From: Spirochaetales bacterium
GTDB lineage: Bacteria; Spirochaetota; Spirochaetia; Sphaerochaetales; Sphaerochaetaceae
NCBI GenBank assembly: GCA_028722305.1
Contig: JAQYHB010000001.1
Location: 1 to 64,000, forward strand
DNA length: 64,000 nt
Direction: 5' to 3'
Of the stretch, positions 31,099 through 34,909 are shown piece after piece (the first letter of the stretch is position 1; the number at the start of each line of letters is the position of its first letter). The notes under the pieces are model-generated. The model was not told the DNA's origin. It searched no databases and was given only the letters and a program-made list of their open reading frames with translations. The position numbers and the translations under genes were made by a program.

Positions 31099-31626
31099 AT
31101 GGAAGGATATCTGGTCGCGAGCGACATCCATGGGGATCGGGAGGCCTTCGAGCGTCTACTGGAACTGCTCGGTGAGCATCATGTGGAATCGATGCTGGTC
31201 TGTGGGGACCTGCAACCCGAGTATCTTGGTCCGACGCTCATCGGTACGGTGGAGATGACCCTGGTCAGGGGGAACTGCGACAGCTCCTATGAGTTCCAGA
31301 GCGTCGGGAAACCGGTTCCCCCGCTGGTGCGGCGCATTCCCTGGCACGGCCGGACCATTGTCATGACCCACGGCGACCGATGGCCTGGGCCCTATGGGCT
31401 TTCGATGCGGGAAGGGGATTTGTTCCTGTTCGGCCACATCCATGTCCCCAGGCTGTATGTGGATCCCAACGGGATCATCATCCTCAACCCGGGTTCAGCA
31501 GCCTACCCAAGGGGCGGCAGCGCCGCCTCCTACGCCATTCTCTCCCCAGAGAGAATCGAAATCAGGTCGTTGTGGGAGAATACAGTCCTTCAGGGATTGG
31601 AAATCGAGGACCGGAGCGCCCGGTAG
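31099..31626 (+). CDS. YfcE/MJ0936-family metallophosphodiesterase
   Basis: The protein has 175 residues. The calcineurin-like metal motifs are VASDIHGD (D-x-H), VCGDLQPEY (G-D), RGNCDSS (G-N-x-D), MTHGDRW and GHIHVPRL (G-H-x-H). YfcE-type enzymes hydrolyse phosphodiesters, often with unknown physiological substrate. The ATG has no Shine-Dalgarno and sits 8 nt after an extended -10, suggesting leaderless translation. The 3' end overlaps the convergent AOR-like gene by 37 bp, the largest such overlap in the window. Confidence 0.88.
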   Translation: MEGYLVASDIHGDREAFERLLELLGEHHVESMLVCGDLQPEYLGPTLIGTVEMTLVRGNCDSSYEFQSVGKPVPPLVRRIPWHGRTIVMTHGDRWPGPYGLSMREGDLFLFGHIHVPRLYVDPNGIIILNPGSAAYPRGGSAASYAILSPERIEIRSLWENTVLQGLEIEDRSAR

Positions 31627-33161
31627 ACCTCGATCAGGCGGCTCGTCCGCACCAGGTTCCGTCCAGGATCCCCGTACATCACCCCGGTGACGAAACAGTC
31701 GGGAATCCGTCCCCCGCGAAAGCGGCCGAGCCTGGCGTCCAGACGGTCCTGCATCCGCATCGCCTCATGGCCCAGCTCAAGCACCGCGTCCTCGGTGAAC
31801 AGGTGCCCCTCTCCATCAGTGGCGAGACGGGCCAGCATCCCCATCGGCCTGATATGGCGGTCGGCACAGACCAGGCCATGGAACGCCTTGGGAAGCCCAA
31901 GCGTCTCCATGACCATCCGGAGTTCCGCCCCCCGCAGCGCCATCTTTGCCAGAGCGAGGTTGTCACCCCGCAGATAGGCGTTCCCGCCGAATCCGAACAA
32001 CTCCTCGAAAAGAATCGTATCGTCACCCGAACAGGCCAATGCCGCCTGCGCCGGCAACACCCGGAGATCCAGCGGTAGCAGCTCCAAGGCACCGATCCGG
32101 TAGGATGCCAACGTCGGGCTCTCCATCACCGCGCTGTAGCGGGACTGGGCCATGCCGAAGCTGCGTACCACCTCGACCAGTTCCGGCCCGTCGGCAAGCT
32201 GGTCCTGCCAGGCGGCGAGCAGGGCGATACCGCTGGAAAGGGGATCCACACCCACCTCGTCGCACATGCGCACCAGCACGGAGACGTGTTCAGGGTTGAA
32301 GAGCCCGAGGTTCGGGCCGAGGGCAAGGTAGTCCATCCAACGGGCCCTGATCTTCTCCAAGGCCCAGAGCCGGCCATCCGTGAAATCGTTGAACCCGTGC
32401 AGGGCGATCCACCCCCGTTCCCTGCCGACGGCAATCAGCGAGCGCTCGCCCTGGCGGGCAACGGCGGCGCGGTACTCCTCCAGGAGCATGCCCATGTCGG
32501 TCACGTCATAGCTGATCCGTTCGTGGAATGGTCCCCGAAGGGCAAGCACTTTCAGGTTCTTGTGGGCGAAGGAAAGCCCCAGCCCTCCCCGCCCGATATT
32601 TTCCCCGTCGCACTGGAGGCTGGCGAAGCGGTTGCCACGCTCGGCCGCGGGACCGATGGCGGCGATGTGCCAGCCGGCGTAGTGGCTCCGCAGGACACCG
32701 CAAGGTTGGTCATGCAGTTCCTCCTCGACGGAAAAGGCGACGCGGCTGCCATCGATGACCAGGCTCGAGGTGCGCCGTTGCCGCCCCAGAAGGACGATGG
32801 CGCAAAGGCCCAACGAGCAGAGGCCGCTGCCGAAAGGCCCTTCTCCGAAGGCACATTCCACCATGCCGGTCACCGGGCTTTTGGTAACGACCACGTAGCC
32901 GCGGGCGAAGGAAAGGTCCAGGTCGCTGAGCCCTCCCGGGGCAATCACGATCGGGTTTCCCTCGTCGAAAAGGCTGTTCCGCTGTTTCTGGTAATCGGCG
33001 TACTTGTCCCACAGCCACATGGCAAGCAATCTCCCACCGACCAGGGAGCGTCCTGTTTCCGGATCGAGCGGACAAAACTCCACCCGCTCGTGGTCGAGGT
33101 CGACCACGAGGTATCTTCTCGACCGGTAGGGAAATCCTTCAAACGTTACGGAACTCGCCAT
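31590..33161 (-). CDS. Aldehyde:ferredoxin-oxidoreductase-like protein lacking the Fe-S cysteines
   Basis: The protein has 523 residues. The family order is preserved: an N-terminal beta domain (YLVVDLDHERVEFCPLDP, VGGRLLAMWL), VVTKSPVTGMVE, IAAIGPAAERGNRFASLQ, GENIGRGGLGLSFAHKNLK, YLALGPNLGLFN, CDEVGVDPLSSGIALL, and a C-terminal ETLGLPKAFHG. In AORs the pterin lies near a [4Fe-4S] cluster held by C-x2-C-x3-C and a Cys in the DxLGLC motif. Here the first three are absent and the last is Pro. It has a consensus promoter (TTGACA-17-TAGATT) ending 11 nt before the ATG and no Shine-Dalgarno. Function unknown; possibly tungstopterin-binding without electron transfer. Confidence 0.8.
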   Translation of the reverse strand: MASSVTFEGFPYRSRRYLVVDLDHERVEFCPLDPETGRSLVGGRLLAMWLWDKYADYQKQRNSLFDEGNPIVIAPGGLSDLDLSFARGYVVVTKSPVTGMVECAFGEGPFGSGLCSLGLCAIVLLGRQRRTSSLVIDGSRVAFSVEEELHDQPCGVLRSHYAGWHIAAIGPAAERGNRFASLQCDGENIGRGGLGLSFAHKNLKVLALRGPFHERISYDVTDMGMLLEEYRAAVARQGERSLIAVGRERGWIALHGFNDFTDGRLWALEKIRARWMDYLALGPNLGLFNPEHVSVLVRMCDEVGVDPLSSGIALLAAWQDQLADGPELVEVVRSFGMAQSRYSAVMESPTLASYRIGALELLPLDLRVLPAQAALACSGDDTILFEELFGFGGNAYLRGDNLALAKMALRGAELRMVMETLGLPKAFHGLVCADRHIRPMGMLARLATDGEGHLFTEDAVLELGHEAMRMQDRLDARLGRFRGGRIPDCFVTGVMYGDPGRNLVRTSRLIEVYRALRSSISNP

Positions 33162-33172
33162 GTGCTATGGAA

Positions 33173-33201
33173 AATCTACCTGTCGCGAAAGAAGGTGTCA
33201 A
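33173..33201 (-). promoter_or_regulatory. Promoter of the AOR-like gene
   Basis: TTGACA (33201-33196), a 17-bp spacer and TAGATT (33178-33173), ending 11 nt before the ATG. Its -35 overlaps that of the divergent nucleoside kinase promoter. Confidence 0.7.
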
Positions 33202-33223
33202 CGGCCCGAAGTTTCTGTATTAT
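33195..33223 (+). promoter_or_regulatory. Promoter of the nucleoside kinase gene
   Basis: GTGTCA (33195-33200), a 17-bp spacer and TATTAT (33218-33223), ending 6 nt before ATG 33230. Confidence 0.5.
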
Positions 33224-33229
33224 GGATAC

Positions 33230-34909
33230 ATGCAGACTATCCGTATTACGTATCGACAAACCGTGCTTGAAGTGGTCTCCGGAACCACAATCCGGGAGGC
33301 CTTGTGCCGTTTCGGACTGAAGGATGAGATGAGCGACTCCTATCAGAGGAATCCAATCATCGCAGCCCTTGTCAACTCAAATCCCCGCAATCTGGAAAGC
33401 CCGCTGCTGTTCCAGGCAACGCTGGAACCGATCAGGCTCTTCTCCGATCTAGGCAAAGTCTGTTACCGCCAGAGTCTTTGCTTTCTCCTGGCGGCGGCCG
33501 CCCGGAAGGCGGTTCCCGACCGCCATCTCGAGATCGGCTACGCCCTAGGGGATGGATACTACTTCACCTTCACCGACAATCTGATCGTCTCCGGCGAGAC
33601 GGTCGAGAACCTGCGCAAGGCCATGTTGGAGCTGGTGGACGCCGATCTCCCCATCCATCCCGAAGTGCTCAGCCTCGGAGAGGCCGTCGAATGGTTCGGC
33701 AGTCATCAGGGGGAGGAGACCGTATCCCTTCTGGAGTCTCTGAACCCAGCCGGCGTTGAAGTCTACACCATGGGGGACTTCCATGACGTGGTGCACAACG
33801 TGCCAGTCCCCAAAAGCGGCCTGATCACCCTCTGGGAGCTGAGGCAATACAAGCTGAACGGCCTTCTGCTCCGCTACCCCAGGTCCTTCGACTATACCCG
33901 GCTGGACACCTACCGGGACAACCCCTTGCTCTTCGAGGCCCTGAAGAAGGACAAACTGCAGCGCCCGATCCTGAAAGTCAACGCGATTGGAGACCTCTCC
34001 CGCTTCAGCGAAGAGGACAAGCTGGTCCCCTACATCCGTCTCTGTGAAGCCTACCAGGCCAAGCATATCAACGAGATCGCCGATACCATCACCCAGCGGT
34101 CCAATATCCGCATCGTCCTCATCTGCGGCCCCTCCTCTTCGGGCAAGACCACCTTCAGCTACAAGCTCTGCACCCAGCTGGAGGTGCGTGGACGCAAGGC
34201 GATCCAGCTCAGCCTGGACAACTACTATCTGCCGCCCGACCAATGTCCGAAGGACAAGGACGGAAAGCCGAACTTCGAGGTGCTCGAGGCGCTGAACCTA
34301 CCCCTGCTCCAGCAGAACCTGAAGGATCTGGCGGCAGGCAAGCCGGTCCGGCTTCCCACCTACAACTTCCAGACGAAGAAGACCACCTTCGGAGAGCCTG
34401 TGGTACAGGATGAGCGGACCATCTTGGTCGCCGAGGGAATCCACGCGATGAACCCGAAGCTCGCCAGCGGCATCGACCCTGAACTGATCTACCGGATCTA
34501 CATCTCCGCCTTCACCCAGGTCAACATCACCGACCACAACCGGATCAGCACCACGGATAACCGGATCATCCGGAGGATTGTCCGCGACCACCGCACCAGG
34601 AACTCCAGCGCAGAGGAGACGCTGGGGATGATGAAGAGCGTGCAAACAGGGGAGAACCTGTATATCTTCCCCTTCCAAAACAACGCTGACGTGATGCTCA
34701 ACAGCGCGCTGGACTACGAGCTTGCGGTCCTCGCCCCCTTGGCCATCCCCCTTCTGCGCAGGGTGAAGCCGGAAACCGGAGAGATTTACGTGACTGCACG
34801 CAGGCTGCTGCGCTTCCTCACCTATTTCCAGCCGGTCAGCGACTCTCTGGTGCCTCAGGACTCCCTACTGCGCGAGTTCATCGGCGGCAGTGAGTACAAC
34901 GTCACGTGA
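33230..34909 (+). CDS. Nucleoside (uridine-like) kinase with TGS- and SAD-like N-terminus
   Basis: The protein has about 559 residues. Residues 1-60 resemble a TGS domain, about 60-240 resemble the second additional domain of threonyl-tRNA synthetase without its zinc catalytic motif, and about 280-480 form a uridine kinase/phosphoribulokinase P-loop domain (VLICGPSSSGKTTFSYKL; LSLDNYYLPPDQCP; AEGIHAMNP). This architecture is typical of nucleoside kinases in spirochaetes, Thermotoga and clostridia that act on uridine/cytidine or related nucleosides. The frame is open 21 codons upstream, but ATG 33230 lies 6 nt after a TATTAT box, so I chose it. The 3' end overlaps the HAD gene by 8 bp. Confidence 0.85.
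   Translation: MQTIRITYRQTVLEVVSGTTIREALCRFGLKDEMSDSYQRNPIIAALVNSNPRNLESPLLFQATLEPIRLFSDLGKVCYRQSLCFLLAAAARKAVPDRHLEIGYALGDGYYFTFTDNLIVSGETVENLRKAMLELVDADLPIHPEVLSLGEAVEWFGSHQGEETVSLLESLNPAGVEVYTMGDFHDVVHNVPVPKSGLITLWELRQYKLNGLLLRYPRSFDYTRLDTYRDNPLLFEALKKDKLQRPILKVNAIGDLSRFSEEDKLVPYIRLCEAYQAKHINEIADTITQRSNIRIVLICGPSSSGKTTFSYKLCTQLEVRGRKAIQLSLDNYYLPPDQCPKDKDGKPNFEVLEALNLPLLQQNLKDLAAGKPVRLPTYNFQTKKTTFGEPVVQDERTILVAEGIHAMNPKLASGIDPELIYRIYISAFTQVNITDHNRISTTDNRIIRRIVRDHRTRNSSAEETLGMMKSVQTGENLYIFPFQNNADVMLNSALDYELAVLAPLAIPLLRRVKPETGEIYVTARRLLRFLTYFQPVSDSLVPQDSLLREFIGGSEYNVT

Follow-up and report, generated by a model that had tools for sequence, protein, structure and literature searches.

A probable metal- and cofactor-free pseudoenzyme of AOR descent in Sphaerochaetaceae

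Overview

The product of the AOR-like gene analysed here is probably a pseudoenzyme that uses neither metal nor cofactor and derives from AOR, the large subunit of a tungsten oxidoreductase. Since the family retains it under strong selection despite the loss of the catalytic residues, often of the Fe-S site and, in most species, of the cofactor genes, an old tungsten enzyme seems to have taken on a new, metal-free role. Good confidence is placed in the protein being both cofactor-free and functional and, if it is, a ligand-binding or scaffold role is modestly favoured over a new catalytic activity. Annotation of Mo/W enzymes by family credits about 120 Sphaerochaetaceae genomes with an apparent aldehyde:ferredoxin oxidoreductase, which most of them are probably unable to make as a tungsten enzyme. 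The clade would represent a lineage-wide case in which the scaffold of an oxidoreductase has persisted beyond its cofactor.

The gene, its locus and its homology

The window (the whole stretch of DNA analysed, 64,000 nucleotides) comes from a Spirochaetales bacterium of the Sphaerochaetaceae (GCA_028722305.1, contig JAQYHB010000001.1, positions 1 to 64,000, forward strand). The AOR-like reading frame (Table 1) is undamaged from its ATG start onwards, as an earlier note on this DNA had stated, and the near-consensus promoter which that note described agrees with the consensus at 10 of 12 positions, both hexamers being identical in the nearest, 95%-identical relative.

Table 1. Coordinates of the features discussed (window positions, unless a locus is named)
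Feature	Position	Strand	Basis or remark
Putative AOR-derived cofactor-less protein (P0001), 523 aa	31590..33161	(-)	profile and alignment evidence
Nucleoside (uridine) kinase-like gene, conserved divergent neighbour	33212..34909	(+)	neighbour comparison; start set by a 565-aa relative (listed ORF begins at 33167)
Convergent metallophosphoesterase gene	31120..31626	(+)	start approximate
Promoter-like TTGACA-17-TAGATT in the divergent gap	33173..33201	(-)	consensus match alone
C-x2-C-x3-C deletion junction, after residue 268	32357..32362	(-)	approximate; PfAOR alignment
Deleted His448 loop, approximate site	32010..32030	(-)	alignment to PfAOR
P424 codon, at the C494 position	31890..31892	(-)	alignment
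D262-x-R264	32370..32378	(-)	D and R aligned in 31/31 clade members; in sister group too
Fe-ADH-like pairs, cluster 13	L054, L055, L060, L061, L064, L066, L069, L075 (e.g. L060 9838-12305)		

The profile search proposed earlier gave a divided answer: Pfam AFOR_N matches the protein (E=6.6e-34; 117.8 bits against a cut-off of 29.8), but AFOR_C, with 17 bits over residues 279-313, stays below its cut-off of 27 for this single sequence. The claim of an AOR-like order from end to end fared better. A phmmer search with the protein reaches PfAOR (1aor) at 8.6e-18, a profile of 29 relatives (four canonical AORs among them) aligns to residues 6-588 of P. furiosus AOR (1aor; E=3.8e-135), and a profile of the 13 Cys-less members alone aligns to the canonical AOR profile over 545 columns (probability 100, E=3.2e-70). 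The last two alignments indicate that the full length of the protein is AOR-derived, and such full-length sequence homology places it in the AOR family by descent and fold. Structure prediction from nine sequences yielded a poor model (pLDDT 43), and a search for viral relatives returned none.

A protein search found a homologue in 122 of 139 Sphaerochaetaceae genomes. The genome studied carries one AFOR_N gene, exactly one is likewise present in most genomes of a smaller family sample, and the relatives named by a search with a four-sequence alignment include uncultured Spirochaetaceae RUG023 and Sphaerochaeta sp. S2, on which basis the family is taken to be Sphaerochaetaceae. Most of the genomes retrieved have the AOR-like gene at a shared site where it adjoins the nucleoside kinase gene, usually divergently, and many loci also hold genes for a metallophosphoesterase, an alpha/beta hydrolase and a BrkB/YihY-type membrane protein. 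The metallophosphoesterase gene of the window shares 37 bases with the 3' end of the AOR-like gene.

Residues lost and retained

Aligned to PfAOR (whose numbering is used for the ancestral residues), the protein lacks all four [4Fe-4S] cysteines, in line with the main claim of the earlier note: the C-x2-C-x3-C segment with the equivalents of C288, C291 and C295 is deleted, and the fourth ligand, C494, is replaced by proline at the ETLGLP position, where the loss of a C-terminal cysteine had been described. The reading of LGPNLG (for LGSNCG) as a further cysteine loss does not hold, since that cysteine is no cluster ligand and PfAOR itself has LGANLG there. As judged from the alignment, the losses are wider than had been noticed. 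The loop carrying the catalytic His448 together with K450 is deleted, Glu313 is replaced by M276 and Y312 by W275; the His448 loop and Glu313 had been overlooked. For comparison, 99% of AOR-family proteins are stated to contain the cysteine motif, 79% the His and 82% the Glu (PMC10413684).

The pterin contacts are mostly replaced as well. Those published for A. aromaticum AOR are Arg75, Gly94, Arg181, Asp361, Asp504, Ile508, Cys509 and Val510 (PMC10413684); residues 42-44, the GGR to which pterin binding had been attributed, are not among them, and the matching positions of the protein have mostly changed. Specifically, R76 has become G88, G95 has become E107, R182, D489 (now E) and C494 are replaced too, and D343 (as D306) and the GRGG loop are preserved. 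With the cluster ligands gone, the earlier expectation of no ferredoxin chemistry is borne out at the level of sequence, and the protein is predicted to be redox-inactive.

A clade with stepwise losses

Whether the Cys-poor form marks a conserved clade had been posed as a question, to which a maximum-likelihood tree of 42 sequences gives an affirmative answer: the 31 orthologues fall in one clade (support 100/100), with the canonical AORs L022, L026 and L077 as its sister group, so that the form is a property of the lineage. The His448 loop is missing in all 31, and R76 and G95 are each retained in 3% of the clade as against 91-100% of 11 canonical AORs. The scaffold residues G164, K196, K199, G319 and R430 are retained in 90-100%.

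The orthologues differ in their cluster ligands and in the catalytic Glu. Twelve have the whole C-x2-C-x3-C motif, six have part of it and 13 have none, and all four cluster cysteines are present in just 6 of the 31. Close homologues bearing the cysteines, which would have pointed to local decay, were not found: the cysteines are missing from the nearest intact relatives, and the six four-Cys orthologues, all distant from the window gene, themselves lack His448 and R76. In Sphaerochaeta, most sequences hold degenerate remnants (for example, CPRSC...CPAC); the segment is deleted as in the window gene in L094, L096 and L114 (G129, G131 and G146), and L097 (G128) retains CAGCPNGC. Since four cysteines persist in six orthologues and G025 has retained a polyferredoxin gene upstream, a cluster may still be present in part of the clade.

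The state of the cluster motif changes at least seven times on the tree, parsimony counts alone being silent on the direction. In the history we propose, a single event close to the root of the clade would have removed the His448 loop, and the cluster ligands would have disappeared on several later occasions.

Selection and the broken copy

The AOR-like gene is under strong purifying selection, and the earlier statement that it is maintained is thereby upheld. Between G000 and G002, the nearest species, its dN/dS is 0.063 at a dS of 0.41 (Nei-Gojobori), which agrees with genuine neighbouring genes such as those for the NifS-type aminotransferase (0.04) and the kinase (0.08); overlapping wrong-strand ORFs give about 0.5-1.1. 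For Sphaerochaeta pairs with dS of 0.17-1.5 the ratio is 0.05-0.12, and a further two pairs, almost identical (dS 0.007 and 0.025), are uninformative.

These values bear directly on the view that the gene is a functionless relic in slow decay. The copy in G001 (same genus) contains an in-frame stop and is broken up over different frames, amid intact neighbours; furthermore, G011, G014, G015 and G030 show neither a match to the protein nor a detectable copy beside the kinase, although the G011 contig ends soon after the kinase. An assembly error behind the G001 copy was considered and rejected: each neighbouring gene matches in a single frame, which makes a genuine break probable. Nevertheless, the low dN/dS in separate lineages largely refutes a relic, against which the stop-free frames of nearly all family homologues among the matches listed also speak, and which is left with a very slight probability; local decay was likewise rejected on dN/dS and the clade-wide distribution. 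On its sequence, the protein is an enzyme homologue without catalytic residues that is kept by selection, as the term pseudoenzyme denotes.

Cofactor supply

The biosynthesis on which a tungsten enzyme would depend is not detected in the host. Searches of its genome (95% complete) revealed no MoaA, MoaC, MoaE or MoeA and no PF00384 enzyme; ModB, a marker of molybdate transport that is unspecific below its curated cut-off, did not exceed it. Across the family, MoeA_N was found in 0 of 37 genomes (complete single-contig ones included), and MoaA and MoaC in three of 37 each. In other families of the class, most AFOR-bearing genomes have MoaC and MoeA, the exceptions being G039 and G052.

The suggestions of a cofactor-binding protein and of a carrier or chaperone for tungstopterin thus find little favour. 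In their broadest form, the protein would still bind tungstopterin or another pterin sourced from outside, as a carrier, a chaperone or a cluster-less enzyme. The preserved D343 and GRGG loop would suit such a role, the finished cofactor might be imported irrespective of gene content, and MoaC occurs in 11 of 139 family genomes in the wider set. Against this stand the absence of the pathway and of PF00384 enzymes from the host genome and the loss of R76, G95, R182, D489 and the H448/K450 loop; moreover, of the three genomes in the smaller sample that have MoaA and MoaC, G001 has the AOR-like gene with a disrupted frame, G007 has a Cys-less form and G011 has no match at the locus. Pterin binding is therefore considered highly improbable. 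A tungstopterin carrier in particular is unlikely, given the missing host genes, the absence of MoeA_N from all 37 family genomes and the scarcity of MoaC, and was rejected as the main reading because the pathway is absent.

The loci L079, L080 and L081 (in G001, G011 and G007, respectively) combine MoaA and MoaC with ModB-type transporter genes, their genomes having no MoeA_N match and L079 holding a MoCF_biosynth-domain protein instead. Separately, G003, G006 and G031 (L070, L076, L077 and L078) contain canonical AORs with all active-site residues, away from the kinase locus; no MoaA, MoaC or MoeA was found in these fragmented assemblies, for which contamination or missing contigs are possible.

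What the protein might do

A pseudoenzyme with a ligand-binding or scaffold role has to be weighed against a new enzyme, in which the cavity would have gained a different, metal-free catalytic activity. Strong purifying selection is compatible with the latter, as are two polar residues that are common and specific to the clade, R130 (87%) and E147 (84%). However, most clade-invariant residues are also found in canonical AORs or the sister group (for example, D262-x-R264, of which the first position is N in L098, a sequence added later); they consequently look structural and no new active site stands out, R130 and E147 seeming to define no obvious one. A new catalytic activity is thus regarded as unlikely. 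In the favoured pseudoenzyme, the three-domain scaffold inherited from AOR, with its central cavity emptied, would work without redox chemistry, most likely as a binder of a small ligand or of a partner protein. Points that tell against this reading are the preserved D343, the four cysteines in six orthologues, the 11 family genomes with MoaC and the fact that several genomes are incomplete MAGs. As for the regulator role also raised in the earlier note, the evidence speaks neither for nor against it.

Relation to known systems

The protein shares end-to-end homology and scaffold residues with the AOR/WOR family (PfAOR 1aor, A. aromaticum AorB, WorL), but differs from it in the missing cluster cysteines and His448 loop, the replaced Glu313, the mostly replaced pterin contacts and the lack of the cofactor pathway in the host genome. 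Orphan molybdoproteins (PMC6147048) are likewise Mo/W-family proteins in pathway-less genomes; these belong mostly to the DMSOR and XO families, whereas the Sphaerochaetaceae case has also lost cofactor and catalytic residues. On whether orphans are metal-independent, that survey found 'no significant sequence-level features'; the present clade supplies such features, its members ranging by degrees from four cysteines down to none. A study of 92 WOR clades makes no mention of spirochaetes in its main text (PMC13328260), and among open papers no description of the Sphaerochaetaceae AOR-like clade and none on point concerning AOR in Sphaerochaeta was found.

Partner genes and the ancestral module

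Class II WORs have an adjacent polyferredoxin, and the same arrangement of polyferredoxin and AOR is seen at the intact sister-group locus L132. The ancestral locus is inferred to have resembled a Class II WOR module and may have included an ADH, as in L077. Two Fe-ADH-like genes lie side by side at the locus in eight genomes; in L060, one copy has an Fe-ADH match (8e-32) and the other falls below the cut-off. Aligned to the intact L077 Fe-ADH, all 16 copies have lost the Asp/His iron-ligand set, although four retain single His residues at individual positions, and GGGSxxDxAK or a near form is often kept in one copy per pair. Since this pair has also lost its iron ligands, the entire AOR/ADH module is suggested to have become metal-free. 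We tentatively extend this to a module of AOR, Fe-ADH and polyferredoxin that, in a family most of which has lost tungstopterin synthesis, turned into a set of metal-free proteins sharing a novel function outside redox chemistry, fixed throughout Sphaerochaetaceae; the window gene would be a pared-down version of it. This extension is possible rather than probable. In most of the eight, the locus also encodes a protein of some 460 aa that has no Pfam match. Small proteins without a Pfam match are found beside AOR-like genes as well (L060 9300-9851 and L069 8690-9151), with a relative at the sister-group locus L132 (230-748); as a guess from sequence, the small locus protein is possibly SCP2-like.
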